DNA of 15,041 nucleotides, taken from positions 7,542-22,582 of the forward strand of contig PAYY01000003.1 of NCBI GenBank assembly GCA_002715465.1, in the 5' to 3' direction. The DNA comes from Fidelibacterota bacterium. Its GTDB lineage: Bacteria > Marinisomatota > Marinisomatia > Marinisomatales > S15-B10. Positions 1 through 14,022 of this stretch are shown piece after piece. The stretch's first letter is position 1. Each line of letters opens with the position of its first letter. A program made the position numbers and the translations under genes. A model generated the notes under the pieces. The model did no database searches, was not told where the DNA came from, and was given only the letters and a program-made list of their open reading frames with translations.

Positions 1-917
1 AAATTACCCCAATCAGTTTGGTTATTAGGCCTTTCCCTAGTCCGTTGTAAGAATCTAGCCGTAAGAGATTCTAGCTCTTGCAATGAGTCCGCCCTTACAA
101 GTAATTGATGACCTTCCTGTTTTTTACCTATTCTAACTAATGCTTGGCCAAGATTGTAATTAGATCCATAATGCCATTGCATATTCTGTTGAGCTAAGTA
201 TAGATAATTTATTGATTCATCAATAGAACCAGATTTTAGAAGTAACGCTCCTAATTCATAAATATATTCATGATTTTCTGGATCAAGTTTGTGAGCTTTC
301 CTTAAATTGATTAAAGCATCCTTTATTTTTCCTTCATCTCTGTAAATCCTACCCAATAGGAAATATGCTGGAGCATATAAACTGTCAATTTCTACGGCTT
401 TCATTACATTTTCCATAGCCTTTTCAGATTCATAAAGATTAGAATGGGTAACAGCTATTTTCTCATATACTTCAGCACGTGGGTATTCTTTTAATTCATT
501 ATTGTAATGTTTAAGAGCTTTATTGAATTGATCAAGTCCTAAGGCATTATTTCCCATATTAAACCATGCACCATGAAAAGATGGATTTATTATTAGAGCT
601 TGTGAGTATGCTATCTCCGAGTCATCAAAACGGTTTAATTGATCCAAAATTAAGCCACGAAAATAATGTACTCCGGCTAGGTGCTTACCATAGATTTCTG
701 CACTATCGATCTGAGTTAAGGCAGCATTATAACGACCTTCATCAAGAGCCTCTTGTGCAAGATTAAGAAATGAAAGAATCTTTTCAGCAGTTTTCAATTC
801 ATCAAGAGTAAGCTCTTCTTTTTGTTCAGAATCGCCGCAACCTAAAATCATTATTAGAATAAGAATCAAGGTTAGATGGATAATAGAAGATAGCTTAATT
901 ATTTTTAAACTGATCAT
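1..917 (-). CDS. TPR-repeat lipoprotein, C-terminus cut by left edge
   Basis: The reading frame is open from an ATG at 917 to the window edge (305 codons, no stop), so the C-terminus is missing. Residues 1-27 form a type II signal peptide with a long hydrophobic run ending in a lipobox (I-L-G-C, Cys27), so the protein should be an exported lipoprotein. From about residue 45 onward there are repeated TPR-like helical pairs with the usual small/aromatic pattern, for example 'AWFNMGNNALGL', 'APAYFLLGRIYRDEGK' and 'YIYELGALLLKSG'. TPR arrays bind other proteins; the partner cannot be told from the sequence. It starts 33 nt after the FG-GAP/ASPIC gene on the same strand, so co-transcription is likely, and TPR modules are often found near or fused to ASPIC/UnbV proteins. 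No clear Shine-Dalgarno precedes the ATG. The start rests on the signal peptide. Confidence 0.85.
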   Translation of the reverse strand, partial: MISLKIIKLSSIIHLTLILILIMILGCGDSEQKEELTLDELKTAEKILSFLNLAQEALDEGRYNAALTQIDSAEIYGKHLAGVHYFRGLILDQLNRFDDSEIAYSQALIINPSFHGAWFNMGNNALGLDQFNKALKHYNNELKEYPRAEVYEKIAVTHSNLYESEKAMENVMKAVEIDSLYAPAYFLLGRIYRDEGKIKDALINLRKAHKLDPENHEYIYELGALLLKSGSIDESINYLYLAQQNMQWHYGSNYNLGQALVRIGKKQEGHQLLVRADSLQELESLTARFLQRTRERPNNQTDWGN

Positions 918-950: not shown

Positions 951-3416
951 TTAAGGCGCAATCTGACTACCCGGATTAAACGGTAGTACATTATTATTTT
1001 TTTCATGAATCAAAATATGCCTATCTACATCAATTTCTCCGATTTCTTGAATAATACCTGATGGCCATTCAATTATCAAAGAATCAATCTTATTATGTTT
1101 CCCAAGCCCAAAGTGAATTAAACTAGGGGATTGGGAACGATAGCTATTAATAGGATGCAATTCTCTTACTATAAGTCTACCTGAAAGATTTGCAGTAACT
1201 TTTGCTCCAATTCCTAGACTATTACTCTTTGTTCCGCGAAGAGATAGCTTAAGCCAATGTTGTTTAGGGAACCGATTCTCATAGACTTGTAAAGGTCCTC
1301 CCCCTACTTGCCTTACAACAAGGTCTTGCCTTCCATCATTATTTAAATCCGCGGGTATAACACATCTGCCATCTCCATCTGAATCAGCACCTGTAAGATA
1401 ACTTATATCTACAAAATTAGAACCTGACTTATTAAGATAAACTAAATTTCTCTCAAAGCCACTAAGATTATTACTGGTTGAAATAGCCCAAGGATCTCCA
1501 ACCCAGAATTCATCTAATGATTCATCTATTTCACCAGGCACTGGAACTTTACAAGCTCTATCAAAAGGCTGTGACACGACAGCCTGCCATAAGCATGATC
1601 ATCCATCTGGTTTATCACGATTTCTACTTATAAAACCTGCTGTAGCATAAATATCTAACCAACCATCATTATCAAGATCAACCATTGCTGGACCATATGC
1701 CCAACCAACTTGATCTACATCATATTCTGAACCAACTCGTTTAAACTCTAAATTTCCTTCATTATGATAGAGTTGACTACCTGCTACCATACGATCCAAT
1801 TCCAACATCAATTCTCTAGGGTATGCATCGGGTCTGAGATTCCTGATTACTCTTTTACCAGCACTGGAATACATACTAGCAACATAAAGATCTGGCAAAC
1901 CATCATTGTCAAAATCTCCAAAAGTAACTCCCATTGAACCAAAATCGGCTGGTCCATCAGTTAATTGATGTTCAGTAAATCCAGTACCATTATTGTTAAT
2001 TAATAAAATACCATTACCAAATTCATGTATAACATATAAATCCTGCCAACCATCAGAATTAGCATCCCACCAAACAGAACTGAAAACTGACCTGCTACCT
2101 CCACTTGCATTCAATTTTTCAGTGACATTTTCGAATTTCCAATCCCCAAGATTACGAAGAAGTTCATTCCCTAATTCATCAGAAACTTTTCCACGTATCC
2201 ATGATCCTTCTTTTGGTACGGCGCTAGCTCTAAAAACATAAATATCAATTTTCCCATCTCTATCAAAATCAGCGAATGTTAATCCTGTTACTTTTTCACT
2301 TATTCTAAGATTGCCAATTTTAGTTAAATTGCTTAAATCAGAAACATTTTGAAATTTTTTACCTTCAATATTTTGAAAAATAAGACCAGGGCCTAAAATA
2401 AAATCTTCCCAACCATCACCATTTATATCAGCTATTGCAGCAAGGGAAATATTATTTAATGGAGGCAATCCAACCTCTATAGTAACATCAGTAAACTTTC
2501 CACCTAATTCACCTTTATAGAGTATATAACCTCTATATAGTGCTAAATCATTAATAAGTAAATCAATAATACCATCACGATTATAATCACATGCATAAAC
2601 GCCACCCGTACTTGCGTGAGTAGAAGCTGGCCCATGATTCCAATTATCATGCATCATTTTAGAATTAATTCCCCAATCAAAAGAAGTTTCTTTCATAAGA
2701 TATTCTGATGAAACAGCTAATTTACTTTTGATTAATTTTAAAGTTTTTAACCAACCCCCATCTATTATATCTTTTTCGTTTGGTTCATTCATAATTAATT
2801 GTAGATATAGAATTAATTCACCTAGTCCACTATTTTCTATTTCTCCCCAAATACGTAATTGAAAAACTCCAATCCAATCACCATCAATTTCTTCACGATG
2901 AAGTGGTGCTAATGATTTTAAACGAATTTTTGTTTGAGGAATACCAACAAATTTTTTACGTTTTGACAAAAACCAATTAATAAAACTTGCCTTATCTAGA
3001 GATTTAAATTCCGAATCATTATCAACAAAACGAGATATAGAACTAAAACCTATATTTAAATCTATACTAGATTCATTGACGGGAATTTCTCCTATAAATT
3101 CAGAATGTAAAATATTTTTTATGGCTTCAATATTTCCCATCATTATATCATTAACAAATGGTTTTAAACCATATTCTACTAAAGTATTACCAGCATGTTC
3201 AGTTTTCCATAAGTAATGTCTATCATTTTGAGGAAGTGTTAATCCTAGACTATCAGTCGGAATGTTAAGCTCATCAATCAACTCATTGGCAAGCTCTACA
3301 TCCTTTTGATTATTTATAAAATTATAAGAGATAAAGATTAAAATAATAATAACAACTAAAGACAGATATTTTATATAACCTACAATATGATTATTATAAT
3401 TATTTTTTTTGAACAT
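951..3416 (-). CDS. FG-GAP / ASPIC-UnbV (CRTAC1-like) protein with in-frame TGA; candidate selenoprotein
   Basis: Read through a single TGA at codon 606, this is an 821-residue protein. An N-terminal membrane segment (about residues 15-35, 'LSLVVIIILIFISYNF') acts as a signal anchor, so the rest lies outside the cytoplasm. FG-GAP calcium-loop repeats run from about residue 277 to 590 (DYNRDGIID, DINGDGWED, DFDRDGKID, DANSDGWQD, DFDNDGLPD, DLDNDGWLD). One more (DLNNDGRQD) lies near 690, followed by a typical ASPIC/UnbV domain at about 720-785 (SLGIGAKV...HFGLG...IEWPSG). A beta-propeller with adhesive or scaffolding roles is expected; no reaction can be assigned. The frame could open at a TTG (3443), but the ATG at 3416 has an AAGGAA ribosome site 9 nt upstream. 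The TGA splits the frame after '...NRDKPDG'. It resumes in the same frame as 'SCLWQAVVSQPF' and stays open for 215 codons to a TAA. With the downstream hairpin, I infer selenocysteine insertion. A nonsense mutation or read error remains possible. Confidence 0.8.
1566..1585 (-). promoter_or_regulatory. Candidate bacterial SECIS hairpin
   Basis: On the coding strand the arms AGGCTGT and ACAGCCT pair perfectly (7 bp) around the 6-nt loop CGTGTC. The stem begins after 14 nt and the loop after 20 nt downstream of the TGA. Bacterial SECIS elements are described as a stem close behind the UGA, an apical loop of 3-14 nt starting roughly 16-37 nt away, and a G within the first two loop bases. All of these hold here (G is loop base 2). 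G-U pairs below a single C-T mismatch could lengthen the stem. Folding energy and covariation were not computed. Confidence 0.6.
1599..1601 (-). other. In-frame TGA, candidate selenocysteine codon
   Basis: This TGA lies in frame between two halves of one FG-GAP/ASPIC protein, in the context K-P-D-G-[TGA]-S-C-L-W-Q. If decoded as Sec it gives a U-x-C motif (U606, C608), a plausible redox pair. Every other gene end visible in the window is TAA, and tryptophan elsewhere is coded by TGG, so general reassignment of TGA is not indicated. From memory, some ASPIC/UnbV relatives carry Cys-Ser followed by an aromatic/Trp stretch at this place; that was not checked here. Confidence 0.65.
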
Positions 3417-3483: not shown

Positions 3484-3510
3484 ATTATAGTAACTATTTT
3501 ACCTAGACAA
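3484..3510 (-). promoter_or_regulatory. Possible promoter of the FG-GAP/TPR unit
   Basis: On the minus strand a perfect TATAAT (3489-3484) is preceded by TTGTCT (3510-3505) with a 15-nt gap, which is shorter than the usual 17. It sits just past the terminator of the upstream PorV gene and about 70 nt before the FG-GAP start, where a promoter is needed. A TAnnTTTG-type element (TAACTTTG, 3448-3441), as used in Bacteroidota, is also present, so the true start site is uncertain. Confidence 0.35.
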
Positions 3511-3513
3511 AAA

Positions 3514-3546
3514 TAAAAAAAGTTCCCAAGAAGGGAACTTTTTTTA
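3514..3546 (-). terminator. Rho-independent terminator after the PorV-like gene
   Basis: The arms AGTTCCC (3521-3527) and GGGAACT (3533-3539) pair perfectly around a 5-nt loop. They are flanked by an A-run on one side and a T-run on the other, so the stem can extend and each strand has a T-tract. It lies about 35 nt past the PorV-like stop on the minus strand, so it ends the TonB/sorting-protein/PorV unit and separates it from the FG-GAP unit. Confidence 0.9.
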
Positions 3547-3577
3547 TTTTTCTATAATTCTATTAATGAATTAATTA

Positions 3578-4567
3578 TTAAAATGAGGCTCCTACAGTGA
3601 TCCTACTTATTCCATCAAAGTCACCCATAGCAGAATATGCATAATCAACTCTGAAACCGCTCATTTTAATTCCAAAACCCATGCTAAAACTTTCTTGATC
3701 ATAATTTGTTTTATAACCACCTCTAAGTGCTAGCATATTTCCATATAGGAATTCACCACCAAGGTGAACACGTTCTGTATAATCACGTGGATGAATTGCA
3801 TTTACTTCAAAATTCAATGAACTATTAGATGGGCCACTAATCAGATCAAATAAATTCATAGCCACACCTAATTTGAATGTGAGCGGCAATTCAAAAGCTT
3901 CTTCTTCATATTTAAACTGTTCTGAAAAATTTGTGAAGCTCATTCCTAGTTTTAAACTTTTAAATCCAGGATAAAACATCGTGCCAAAATCATAGGCGAA
4001 ACCACCTACTTGATTGGTTTTTGTTTTATTTGTTTCTGGCATTAGACTTTCACCTAATTGTTGGCTAGCATATTTAACTGTACCACCAAACCTAAATTTA
4101 TCACTTAAAGCACGGGCCCAAGTTAGACCTACAGCCGAAGCATTTACTCCAAGGTTTCCAGTTGTTACATAGCCGTCTTCTGATCCAGCATCAACCCGAG
4201 TACCAACAATATCACCATAATTAGCGGTGATAAGGCTAACACCCACAGTACCTAAATTTCCCATCGTTTTTGTAACACCGGTTGCAAGATAGCTTATATC
4301 AGCTATCCAACCAACCTGTGAAGCGAAGAAGTCTAGACCTGTCTCCATTTCAGCTGTACCAGCCGGGTTGTAGAATAATGCATCTGCACCACCCATAGTC
4401 ATAATGGATGCACCACCCATTCCTGCAGCTCTGGCATGCATATCCACCTTGAGAAATTGCAAACCTGTCTGACCAATTTTTTTAAGATCAGTTTGCGCAT
4501 TAACGTTAGGCATCAACAAAAAGATGGCCAAAAACGCTACAATAGTATATTTACTTAGTCTTTTCAT
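3578..4567 (-). CDS. PorV/PorQ-family outer-membrane protein
   Basis: This is a 329-residue protein of the PorV/PorQ family, which are 14-strand-type outer-membrane barrels related to FadL. In Bacteroidota, PorV shuttles cargo of the type IX secretion system (T9SS). The sequence shows a signal peptide (residues 1-24, '...LLMPNVNA' then Q) and the family signature near the N-terminus ('QFLKVDMHARAAGMGGASI' through 'ADALFYNPAGTAEM', about residues 36-75). Alternating hydrophobic strands follow, and the protein ends in Phe ('RITVGASF'), as outer-membrane barrels do. The frame could begin 48 nt earlier (ATG at 4615, with its own AAGGAA). I prefer 4567 because it directly precedes the signal peptide and has GGAAGGA upstream. 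It lies right after the sorting-domain protein, which could be its cargo. Whether it is PorV itself or another family member cannot be decided. Confidence 0.85.
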   Translation of the reverse strand: MKRLSKYTIVAFLAIFLLMPNVNAQTDLKKIGQTGLQFLKVDMHARAAGMGGASIMTMGGADALFYNPAGTAEMETGLDFFASQVGWIADISYLATGVTKTMGNLGTVGVSLITANYGDIVGTRVDAGSEDGYVTTGNLGVNASAVGLTWARALSDKFRFGGTVKYASQQLGESLMPETNKTKTNQVGGFAYDFGTMFYPGFKSLKLGMSFTNFSEQFKYEEEAFELPLTFKLGVAMNLFDLISGPSNSSLNFEVNAIHPRDYTERVHLGGEFLYGNMLALRGGYKTNYDQESFSMGFGIKMSGFRVDYAYSAMGDFDGISRITVGASF

Positions 4568-4642
4568 GCTAATCTTCATCCTTCCTTTAGCAGTTCGATG
4601 AATGAATCCAGTCATATTAAATAATATTCCTTATTGCCAATA

Positions 4643-10799: not shown

Positions 10800-12083
10800 A
10801 TGAGCTTAGCTGTTAGATTGTCAAAAATATTTTTCATTGTTTTTAATTCTCTAATTGCTTCAGAGTCTTATAAAGCTATTGAAAGTCTAAATGTAGGAAA
10901 AGGCAATCAAATTGTAATCATAGGAAATAATCTTTGCTCTCGGATGATGAACTTCGGCTACTTTGAGACCGAGATCCACCTTCGACACCCCAAAAGTAAG
11001 CTCACAATAAGAAATATGTGCGACGGTGGAAATACAGCAGGGTTTCGCCCGCATGCTGGCAGATTATCTCACTGGGCTTTCCCTCTAGCTGAAGACTATA
11101 ATGCTGAATATAGCAGGAACTCTGACAGCCAAGGTCACTTTGAGACACCTGACGAATGGCTAAAAAGGCTTAAAGCTGATATTATTATTGCCTTTTTCGG
11201 TTATAATGAATCTTTTCGAAAAGAAGCTGGTGTTGAGTTATTCAAAAAAGAACTTGAGGCTTTTATCCATCATACAAGAAGTCAAAAATACAATGGAGCT
11301 TCCCCTCCTCAGTTGGCAATAGTATCACCTATAGCATTTGAAGATTTGTCAAACATCCATGATCTACCAAATGGTGAGGATGAAAATAAGTACCTTTATA
11401 TGTATAAGGAGGCTATGAAAAAAGTCTCTGAAAAAAATGGGGTTGTCTTTATAGATGTTTTTAATCCGTCAAAAATTTGGTTCGAGGAACAAGATGAATT
11501 AACTATTGATGGATTTCAACTAAACGATCAAGGCTATAAAAAATTGTCGCAATTGATGGCTGATAAACTTTTTTCAAAAAGAAATAAAAATATCTCTAAA
11601 AGAGAAAATTTAATCCGGGAGGCTGTACTTGAGAAAAACTGGATGTGGCACAATGATTTCAAAATTCCAAACGGAGTCCATGTTTTTGGACGAAGATACG
11701 ACCCCTATGGTCCAGAAAACTATCCGTCTGAATTAACTAAAATCAGGGAAATGACAGTCATACGGGATAAAGCAATATGGTCCGCGATTAAAGGAAAGAG
11801 AACCAATTTAGCTAAAAAAGACAAAGGGACCTCTCCTTTAGCCGTTGTTAAAACCAATTATAATCGAGGAGATTCTTACAGCAACAACAAATCTGGCAGT
11901 ATGGTAGAAGGTAATGAAAAAGAACAAATAGTGGATGTGGATTCTATCTATCTCTCAGAAAATAAAGCGTTATCTGCCTTCACATTAGCGCCTGGCTATA
12001 AGGTTGAATTATTTGCGTCTGAGAAGGAATTTCCTGATTTAGCAAATCCTGTTCAACTTTCATTTGACAATAAAGGCCGATAA
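10800..12083 (+). CDS. N-terminal part of a frameshifted SGNH-like / PVC-type cytochrome fusion gene
   Basis: This frame gives 427 residues before a TAA created by a 10-bp duplication. The start is firm: AAGGAG lies 5 nt before the ATG and a signal peptide follows ('IFFIVFNSLIAS'). Residues 36-260 are an SGNH/GDSL-hydrolase-like domain with blocks 'IVIIGNNL' (38-45), 'FFGYNES' (132-138) and 'DGFQLNDQGY' (237 on). The nucleophile Ser expected in block I is Asn (G-N-N), and the His expected in block V is Gln240, so classical esterase activity is doubtful. A variable linker follows. From about 395 'FTLAPGYKVELFAS' starts the membrane-bound dehydrogenase/PVC-type propeller domain, which is cut after 'SFDNKGR' and continues in the next entry. 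Such fusions are common in Planctomycetes and Verrucomicrobia, so relatedness to or transfer from those groups is possible. Confidence 0.85.
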   Translation: MSLAVRLSKIFFIVFNSLIASESYKAIESLNVGKGNQIVIIGNNLCSRMMNFGYFETEIHLRHPKSKLTIRNMCDGGNTAGFRPHAGRLSHWAFPLAEDYNAEYSRNSDSQGHFETPDEWLKRLKADIIIAFFGYNESFRKEAGVELFKKELEAFIHHTRSQKYNGASPPQLAIVSPIAFEDLSNIHDLPNGEDENKYLYMYKEAMKKVSEKNGVVFIDVFNPSKIWFEEQDELTIDGFQLNDQGYKKLSQLMADKLFSKRNKNISKRENLIREAVLEKNWMWHNDFKIPNGVHVFGRRYDPYGPENYPSELTKIREMTVIRDKAIWSAIKGKRTNLAKKDKGTSPLAVVKTNYNRGDSYSNNKSGSMVEGNEKEQIVDVDSIYLSENKALSAFTLAPGYKVELFASEKEFPDLANPVQLSFDNKGR

Positions 12084-14022
12084 AGGCCGATTATGGATCG
12101 CTACAATGCCGACTTATCCCCATTACAGGGCAGGTGATGAAAGACCAAATGACAAGCTAATTATATTAGAAGACACCGATAAAGACGGAAGAGCTGACAA
12201 CCAAATTACTTTTGCTGATGGACTGCATATCCCAGTAGGCTTTGAGTTTTCTCCTGAAGGAGTATATGTATCCCAGGGTACTAACCTTACTTTATATAGC
12301 GACACAAATGATGATGACAAATTTGATAAAAAACAGATTGTGCTAAGCGGGTTTGATGATCATGACACTCACCACAATATAAGTGCCTTTTGCGCTGATC
12401 CATCCGGAGCCATCTACATGGGAGAGGGGGTATTCCTCCATAGTAACATTGAAACAGCATATGGTCCTGTCGATGCTAATGGTGGAGGCTTCTACAGATA
12501 TAGTCCGCAAAAAAGGTATCTAGAACGTACTGTTCAACATGATTTTCTACCTAACCCTTGGGGAATTGCCTTTGATAGGTGGGGACAAAACTTCTATTGT
12601 GATACATCTGGCCCTCCAATAAGATGGATGATGCCAGCAACAATTAAACCACTTTATGGAGTAGGAACAAAAAAACCGAGGAATCTGGTCCCTAAAGAAC
12701 ATCAAGTTCGGCCCACTTCCGGCTTGGAATTTATTTCAAGTCGTCACTTTCCTGAACAAGTTCAAGGGGATTTACTTGTAAACAATACCATAGGATTCCT
12801 AGGAACTAAACAACACGCTGTCTTAGAAGATGGGACTGGCTACAAATTTGAATTTCGCCAAGATCTTATTGTATCTGAAGATGGGAATTTTCGTCCTGTT
12901 GACATGGAATTTGCTCCAGATGGTTCATTATATATTGTTGATTGGCATAACCTGTTAATTGGACATATGCAGCATAATGCAAGAGATCCACTTAGAGATC
13001 ATTCTCATGGAAGAATTTATCGAATTACTTACCCTGACAGACCATTAGTAAAAGAAGCCCTAATCGCTGGTGCTTCTATCGGCCAACTCCTTGACAATCT
13101 AAAACTTCCAGAATACAGGACTCGCTACAGAACTCGTCGTGAGCTTCGAGCAAGAAACGTAAATGATGTTCTAACGGCAGTTCAAAAATGGGTGAAAGAT
13201 TTAGATGCAATGGAACCCAATTTAAACCATCATCTTCTTGAAGCCCTTTGGGTTACATGGGGACTAAATAAAGTTGATGAAAATTTATTAAAAAAGCTCC
13301 TTAGTTCTAAGGACCATCGAGTCAGGGCTGCAGCTGTAAGGGTTTTACGATATAGCAATATTCAGTTGGATACCAAGACTAAATTAATGAAAACTGCCGC
13401 CATTGATGAACATGGTAGAGTTCGCTTGGAAGCAATTACTGCTGCCTCATGGTTAGAAAAAGATCGTGGGCTTTCTATTTTGTCAGAAGCAAAAAAAATG
13501 CCGCTGGATGACTGGATGGATTATGCTCACCAAGCTTCTGTTGCACATATTAATGGAAGAGCTGTTTATGAAGATAAAATTGAAGAAAAAATTATTACAG
13601 ATTTAAAAGGCAATGACCTAGCTCTTTTTCAGCATGGATGGAAGTTATATAACAAGAATGGTCTTTGTATAACCTGTCATCAAGCCGATGGCAAAGGACT
13701 CATAGCATCTGGGTATCCCCCTTTATCTAACACTGATTGGGTTACTGGGAATGAAGAACGGCTAATTAAAATATTGCTAAAAGGCCTATACGGTCCTCTG
13801 GAGGTTAACGGAAAACAATATAGAGGTGTTATGGCTTCCTACGACAAATTATTAAATGATAATGATATAGCCTCTGTCTTAACTTACATAAGAAACTCAT
13901 TCGGAAACCAAGCTTCTGTTATTACAAAAGAAAAAGTGGCAAAAATACGTCTCGCTAATAAAGATCGGGAGAATTATTTCACTTCTGAAGAGTTGCTAGA
14001 AGGAAATATTAATAATGATTAA
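12064..14022 (+). CDS. C-terminal part of the frameshifted gene: PVC-type propeller, HEAT-like repeats and CxxCH cytochrome
   Basis: The frame opens at a TTG with no ribosome site, but the real family sequence resumes at 'GRLWIATMPTYPH', directly continuing the previous entry. The intact gene would code about 1070 residues. A beta-propeller with sugar-dehydrogenase-like repeats spans about 10-320 ('DTDKDGRADNQITFADGL', 'GPVDANGGGFYRY', 'FAPDGSLYIVDWHN'). HEAT-like helices follow ('DHRVRAAAVRVLRY', 'HGRVRLEAITAASWL', about 390-470). A c-type cytochrome module carries CITCH (535-539, bases 13666-13680), with a possible distal Met in 'GVMASY'. This is the order of the TIGR02604/TIGR02603 'PVC-type heme-binding CxxCH' family, thought to oxidise sugars or related compounds in the periplasm. 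Without the upstream signal peptide this half would not reach the periplasm, where haem c is attached, so it should not work alone. The GH32-like gene follows after 20 nt. Confidence 0.85.
   Translation: MTIKADKGRLWIATMPTYPHYRAGDERPNDKLIILEDTDKDGRADNQITFADGLHIPVGFEFSPEGVYVSQGTNLTLYSDTNDDDKFDKKQIVLSGFDDHDTHHNISAFCADPSGAIYMGEGVFLHSNIETAYGPVDANGGGFYRYSPQKRYLERTVQHDFLPNPWGIAFDRWGQNFYCDTSGPPIRWMMPATIKPLYGVGTKKPRNLVPKEHQVRPTSGLEFISSRHFPEQVQGDLLVNNTIGFLGTKQHAVLEDGTGYKFEFRQDLIVSEDGNFRPVDMEFAPDGSLYIVDWHNLLIGHMQHNARDPLRDHSHGRIYRITYPDRPLVKEALIAGASIGQLLDNLKLPEYRTRYRTRRELRARNVNDVLTAVQKWVKDLDAMEPNLNHHLLEALWVTWGLNKVDENLLKKLLSSKDHRVRAAAVRVLRYSNIQLDTKTKLMKTAAIDEHGRVRLEAITAASWLEKDRGLSILSEAKKMPLDDWMDYAHQASVAHINGRAVYEDKIEEKIITDLKGNDLALFQHGWKLYNKNGLCITCHQADGKGLIASGYPPLSNTDWVTGNEERLIKILLKGLYGPLEVNGKQYRGVMASYDKLLNDNDIASVLTYIRNSFGNQASVITKEKVAKIRLANKDRENYFTSEELLEGNINND
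12071..12090 (+). repeat. 10-bp tandem duplication causing a +1 frameshift
   Basis: TAAAGGCCGA occurs twice in direct tandem (12071-12080 and 12081-12090). Removing one copy gives the uninterrupted reading D-N-K-G-R-L-W-I-A-T-M, which matches the family. The second copy supplies the TAA that ends the first half. It is either a slippage mutation or an assembly error. Confidence 0.95.

Follow-up and report, generated by a model that had tools for sequence, protein, structure and literature searches.

One gene in the window (the whole stretch of DNA that was analysed, 15,041 nucleotides) seems to be broken by a stop codon, and very probably it is one intact gene that inserts selenocysteine (Sec) at codon 606. 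The gene (positions 951..3416, reverse strand) is predicted to encode a CRTAC1-like selenoprotein with an FG-GAP propeller and an ASPIC domain. On the best reading of the sequence comparisons, propeller-ASPIC proteins would constitute a new, sizeable selenoprotein family with several subfamilies. The unusual points are the propeller fold, the breadth of the group, and the fact that 117 of the 120 nearest recorded relatives (the best 120 of 7540) are cut at the Sec codon. The first-pass annotation had already proposed Sec at this codon, and that interpretation is supported, the checks that were run being mainly favourable (TGA column, compensatory hairpin changes, Sec genes in relatives). Its scope, a single gene, was too small: we find a group of subfamilies and not a lone odd gene.

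One reading frame across an in-frame TGA

The gene comprises 821 codons when read through the TGA, from an ATG at 3416 to a TAA at 951-953. As had been claimed, it is otherwise intact: the TGA at codon 606 (1599..1601, reverse strand, as are all gene features below unless stated) is its only in-frame stop, and 215 sense codons follow. The candidate Sec lies in a U-S-C motif (U606 and C608, 1593..1601), and 26 of the 27 sequences of the same subfamily (subfamily A) have Cys at +2. The protein begins with a hydrophobic N-terminal helix. Pfam places the best FG-GAP_3 stretch (PF13517, 1881..2066) upstream of the TGA and the UnbV_ASPIC domain (PF07593, 1017..1214) downstream of it. The scores of the read-through protein are above the cut-offs for PF13517 (132.4 bits), PF01839 (49.7) and PF07593 (60.3), and the Pfam scan found no AhpC-TSA/thioredoxin-like domain in it.

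The AlphaFold model of the read-through protein is one continuous fold (pLDDT 90.4, pTM 0.89), which bears out the earlier view that both sides of the TGA read as one protein. A helix spanning residues 606-615 (codons at 1572..1601) begins with the Sec position, for which the model has Cys. The nearest solved structure by fold is murine CRTAC1 (9etn_A, rank 1, E 2.5e-24; TM 0.70 by target length and 0.48 by query length), and 9etn is also the best sequence match among solved structures (E 1.9e-22). CRTAC1 and the window protein have the FG-GAP propeller and the UnbV-ASPIC domain in common. What sets the window protein apart is an extra helix and an extra domain at the N terminus, and a predicted Sec606 that opens a helix in the propeller region; Sec is not described for CRTAC1 in the literature covered.

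On the same strand, 33 nt downstream, is a gene for a TPR protein (3..917) that runs off the window. Among the ten loci scanned for neighbours (L001-L010), a TPR gene adjoins the selenoprotein gene in L001, L006 and L010, not always on both sides, and the locus in genome G001 has both TonB and TPR neighbours in common with the window. For the TonB receptor of the window, the named relatives are mainly KSB1 and Neomarinimicrobiota/Marinimicrobia bacteria, which makes an FCB-group environmental bacterium the likely source. We also noted a gene for a PorV/PorQ family protein (3578-4615, reverse strand), which scores over its NCBIfam cut-off and hints that the surrounding genes may be linked to type IX-like secretion. 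Between this gene and the selenoprotein gene is an A/T-rich inverted repeat (3502-3557) that looks like a bidirectional terminator; its Rfam matches are far below the cut-offs. Elsewhere in the window, two overlapping forward-strand open reading frames (10800-12083 and 12064-14022) share one split DUF7133 domain (PF23500): the first frame ends with domain positions 2-39 (below the Pfam cut-off) and the second contains 36-383. This split suggests a frameshift near 12064-12083, either real or from the assembly.

Homologues, the aligned column and the hairpin

A search of 5.8 billion proteins returned 7540 homologues, and the best 120 were examined. The 117 that are cut have their C-terminal end exactly at codon 606, their last residues being PDG in 115 cases, PDT in one and LDG in one; the other three read through the column. 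The ended homologues come from multiple sources. For instance, P0005 is on another contig, has the same stop and is 100% identical before it (over 48% of query residues 480-760), so that a sequencing error is unlikely. P0006, which represents 31 sequences on 38 contigs, has the same stop and is 93% identical over the compared pre-stop stretch. A search with the C-terminal part found no close full-length orthologue among the best 120 of 950 matches.

At the DNA level, 12 loci of the subfamily (L001-L012, among 80 kept) all have TGA at the column, followed by 201-223 sense codons. Their identity with the window is 43-61% in the C-terminal alignment (the 130 codons before the TGA plus the remaining gene), and their record titles name Planctomycetota groups, Verrucomicrobiales, Akkermansiaceae and one Dehalococcoidia. 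More widely, genes with the Sec column were seen under Planctomycetota, Verrucomicrobia and Handelsmanbacteria titles, and a scan of viral_contigs gave two distant partial matches. All four orthologue pairs tried have a lower dN than dS over the 60 codons that follow the TGA, the closest pair (L116/L117) having a dN of 0.007 and a dS of 0.27.

We then surveyed the aligned column by profile alignment. From 865 matches, 633 with a gap at the column and five duplicates were dropped, leaving 227 unique sites: 155 TGA, 0 TAA, 0 TAG, 20 Cys codons and a scattered remainder. Because TGA members made up most of the input for the query and the profile, the share of TGA is biased upward; the zero count of TAA and TAG is free of this bias. 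Among the 72 sense sites, 22 lack Trp at +4 and resemble misaligned or distant repeats. Cys is the commonest residue at the 50 that have this Trp (20 of 50, one of them, L045, doubtfully aligned). A TGA within a matching row may also lie off the column, as in L122, L123, L132 and L134, which have Cys at the column and TGA elsewhere.

The 155 TGA sites divide into 27 of subfamily A (motif PDG-U) and 128 of sister subfamilies, with motifs such as D-L/T-U-S-x-x-W-R and PD-Y/F/W-U-T. The sister subfamilies have the same Sec column without the Cys at +2. The expectation that homologues would have TGA or Cys in this column holds for the wider family and fails for Cys in the window's own subfamily, where the three full-length sense-codon orthologues have Asp, Ser and Ala. 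No Cys was seen at the column in subfamily A, all 20 Cys sites belonging to the wider family. Among 123 proteins checked (the best 120 of the 950 and P0002-P0004), 72 have a letter at the column; 23 of these entries have Trp at +4, with S in 14, N in 4, A in 3, D in 1, K in 1 and Cys in none. As far as the sequences go, the Asp, Ser and Ala in full-length subfamily A proteins speak against a simple Sec/Cys picture.

The Cys-form loci (L030, L048, L120-L126, L130, L132-L134, L234, L236, L240, L241, L248 and L250) mostly read DYCT-x-FW/YW-x-HDIY and show no hairpin excess; they could be used as a natural Cys control. Arrays of sister Sec genes (PD-Y/F/W-U-T type and similar) also occur, with at least three copies on a contig at spacings of about 3 to 11 kb (G184:C204, G153:C253, G327:C249 and G271:C159).

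Downstream of the TGA, a spacer of 13 nt (1586..1598) leads to a candidate SECIS hairpin with a 5' arm AGGCTGT (1579..1585), a six-base apical loop CGTGTC (1573..1578) and a 3' arm ACAGCCT (1566..1572). The perfect 7-bp stem and the loop were as first described. A G in the first two loop bases, also claimed, is found only at the second, the first being C. Taken alone, this hairpin is weak evidence for Sec. A 7-bp stem at a similar position follows 7 of the window's 651 TGA triplets, and the 62 nt from the TGA, folded as a single sequence, give a z of -0.38, below significance. An Rfam search of the window at E <= 1 returned no SECIS-type match, only weak matches at one A/T-rich repeat, and a tRNA search of the window found none. 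Because the single-sequence folding is non-significant, we relied on comparison. Of the two hairpin checks proposed at the outset, single-sequence folding thus gave no support, whereas covariation did, in sets of 27 and 48 sequences.

In the 27 sequences of subfamily A, 98.8% of the hairpin cells are paired, against 20-65% when the hairpin is slid. Both sides have changed in three of six pairs (C-G to U-A once, U-A to C-G twice), giving nine double-change cells. The percentage paired, the number of double-change cells and the covariation score were each higher than in any of 500 shuffles. Two measures are weak: 27 of 500 shuffles reached the number of both-side-change pairs and 406 of 500 the number of pair types. 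The sister hairpin, whose stem is 3 nt nearer the UGA, is 96.5% paired with 28 double-change cells in 48 sequences. Again, 0 of 500 shuffles was as high on the main measures, and 478 and 462 of 500 reached the both-side-change pairs and the pair types, respectively. These 48 sequences, out of 74 aligned (themselves chosen from 119), were picked by protein motif (D-L/T-U-S, with Q/H/R at +6) because the others fold in a shifted register.

Random synonymous recoding gave the same picture. The mean z is -1.35 for the TGA members of subfamily A (n=27) and -1.41 for a TGA set of n=127, versus +0.14 for Cys (n=19) and -0.37 for other sense codons (n=30; p = 8e-13). Singly, nine of the 27 subfamily A hairpins reach p <= 0.05, including that of the window (p = 0.035). 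Among conserved residues, codon identity is 0.67 at the preset hairpin codons +6 to +11 versus 0.43 elsewhere; it is 0.70-0.95 at codons +5 to +10, a range picked post hoc. By these alignments the hairpin covaries, and it is covariation and comparison, not the lone hairpin, that carry the case for Sec.

Selenocysteine machinery and known selenoproteins

The 12 genomes of L001-L012 encode SelD (12 of 12), SelA (11 of 12) and SelB (11 of 12), and nine have a tRNA-Sec match above 60 bits. This threshold was chosen because the tRNA-Sec matches of three control genomes, which we take to be non-Sec, still pass the 47-bit cut-off. We extended the analysis to 294 genomes sampled from the phylum of G005, which we identify as Planctomycetota from the record title of L005 (Isosphaeraceae). 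Counted by the column itself, 64 of these genomes have the TGA, 10 of them with subfamily A. Up to seven candidates were scored per genome, here and in the sample of the phylum of G002, so negatives may be undercounts. SelB (E <= 1e-60) is present in 59 of the 64 genomes versus 132 of the 230 others (Fisher p = 4e-8); eight of 77 matching genomes were unclassifiable, their match rows being unlisted, and three of those eight have SelB.

Four of the five column-TGA genomes lacking SelB have a tRNA-Sec of 67-74 bits together with SelA and SelD. The fifth (G099) is without SelA, has SelD below the cut-off and a tRNA match of 50.6 bits, and keeps an intact hairpin. We considered whether the G099 copy is a decaying gene on account of two TAG codons; these are ordinary terminal stops, and G099 stands as a plain exception. 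Among 11 sister-type genomes, SelB was found in eight and a tRNA-Sec over the cut-off in 10, G015 having neither. In G006, the exception for SelA and SelB among the 12 genomes of L001-L012, SelA was not detected and SelB only as a fragment. Assembly gaps are the likely cause of the missing machinery in G099, G015 and G006.

In two genomes labelled Verrucomicrobiales (G002 and G004), a selC-selD-selA-selB cluster adjoins the gene, and in G003 this cluster is on a different contig. G001 has SelA, SelB and tRNA-Sec, and its SelD has an in-frame TGA of its own. One in-frame TGA in the SelD match was seen in G001, G008, G009, G184, G263 and G306, consistent with a putative Sec-type SelD in these six genomes. 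As for the gene itself, the phylum of G002 gave one match in 288 sampled genomes (G002 itself), the family of G002 17 in 20, and the phylum of G001 two in 151.

The predicted protein resembles known bacterial selenoproteins, as described in the accessible part of PMC13188914, in its UGA, its in-gene downstream hairpin, the co-occurrence with Sec genes and the short U-x-C motif. It differs in fold: according to the same part of that source, most characterised selenoproteins have a thioredoxin-like fold, whereas the window protein is a beta-propeller. The first-pass annotation knew of no selenoprotein in this protein family, and Table 1 of PMC13188914 (2026), with 119 prokaryotic selenoprotein families or subfamilies, agrees in listing no FG-GAP, ASPIC or VCBS protein in the part accessible. 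PF07593, PF13517 and PF01839 are likewise absent from its accessible text, and a word search of the available text of PMC12013277 and PMC5029168 gave none of the terms FG-GAP, ASPIC and VCBS. PMC4807772, in the passages covered, describes Sec genes in planctomycetes and mentions the formate and formylmethanofuran dehydrogenases. We found no paper on an FG-GAP/ASPIC selenoprotein family in the literature covered, which took in few subscription papers, preprints or supplements, so an earlier report is possible.

Searches against NCBIfam agree with this. For P0001, no curated selenoprotein model of release 20.0 matched, the one match (XAC2610_fam) being below its cut-off. For five sister proteins and L008, the only selenoprotein model matched was NF041054 (WAxxUGC_long), in three sisters and far below its cut-off.

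Possible role and alternative readings

Taken as a whole, the reading in which we have high confidence is that the gene would yield one 821-residue selenoprotein, with Sec inserted at the UGA of codon 606 under the direction of the bacterial-type SECIS hairpin 13 nt downstream and of the SelB/tRNA-Sec machinery; an extracytoplasmic redox role is likely. The protein would be a probably membrane-anchored FG-GAP propeller with a C-terminal ASPIC domain. The hydrophobic helix at its N terminus, together with the kinds of domain it has, suggests an extracytoplasmic location. The run of propeller repeats is broken by a helix that would start with Sec606, and this residue would form a U-x-C motif with Cys608.

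Pfam scans of five sister proteins with the Sec column found an AhpC-TSA domain in three and TPR repeats in three. TlpA/ResA-like and AhpC/TSA proteins thus occur as a fused domain in these sisters (their NCBIfam matches are weaker than those of Pfam), whereas the Sec of the window protein is in the propeller part, outside a thioredoxin fold. From the CRTAC1-like fold, the sister AhpC-TSA fusions and the TPR neighbours we infer that Sec606 may form a redox-active selenol/selenenylsulfide centre outside the cytoplasm. In the sister subfamilies, the fused thioredoxin-like domain (AhpC-TSA/TlpA-type) is the probable electron partner, and the TPR repeats, whether fused or encoded next to the gene, hint at a protein complex. 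We likewise infer Sec insertion in the living cell, and a substrate and a partner for the propeller protein.

FG-GAP propellers are Ca-binding scaffolds. This favours a different role for the same residue, namely that the protein is a selenoprotein in which Sec binds metals or metalloids, or forms a structural selenenylsulfide, and does not serve redox catalysis. A U-x-C motif could bind soft metals, and Table 1 of PMC13188914 gives UxC as the motif of a Cu/Zn efflux transporter. Since the sister subfamilies keep the Sec column without the +2 Cys, and the AhpC-TSA fusion in three of five suits redox cycling better, we regard this role as possible but unlikely.

A true stop, with the propeller and an ASPIC-containing partner made separately by termination and re-initiation, is very improbable. 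A GTG-started open reading frame of 208 aa does lie directly after the TGA, and the first part is recorded as a protein in databases. However, an ordinary stop codon would vary between TAA, TAG and TGA, whereas the 155 sites that have a stop all have TGA. In other homologues the same column holds Cys or another sense codon, and the Cys homologue L030 has the same order of FG-GAP and ASPIC domains. The stop would also fall where a helix begins, within a model that is unbroken and of high confidence, and both the covarying hairpin and the co-occurrence with SelB argue against termination.

We give scarcely any credence to a selenium-free explanation, in which TGA codes for one of the standard amino acids or a near-cognate tRNA allows read-through. 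What speaks for it is that TAA ends all seven window genes checked (the selenoprotein gene and six others, two genes running off the window ends having been left out), as had been noted earlier. Those six other genes, however, contain no in-frame stop and hence no in-frame TGA, the orthologues L003, L004, L005, L006, L008 and L011 have TGA as their own terminal stop, and reassignment leaves the SECIS-like covariation and the link with SelB unexplained. One-stop pseudogenes are common, but a sequencing error or recent pseudogene in the window copy is a negligible prospect given the same stop in other assemblies (P0005 and P0006) and under the record titles of several phyla, and dN below dS after the TGA.

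With insertion of Sec at codon 606 as the preferred reading, a beta-propeller family with several subfamilies joins a list whose characterised members mostly have thioredoxin folds. Because 117 of the best 120 homologues stop at the Sec codon, their records lack both the ASPIC region at the C terminus and the residue that is likely to be active. In Planctomycetota, where the TGA is at the column in 64 of 294 sampled genomes, these proteins may be a major use for the Sec machinery. We put at about even the chance that FG-GAP/ASPIC propellers are a major unrecognised selenoprotein superfamily of environmental bacteria, with a catalytic selenol at a helix start in the propeller and not in the thioredoxin fold usual for selenoproteins; together with thioredoxin-like and TPR partners they would form an extracytoplasmic redox system that helps to sustain the Sec trait in the phyla concerned. 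As the Sec-bearing column is a candidate active site, the chemistry of the CRTAC1/ASPIC family becomes testable.
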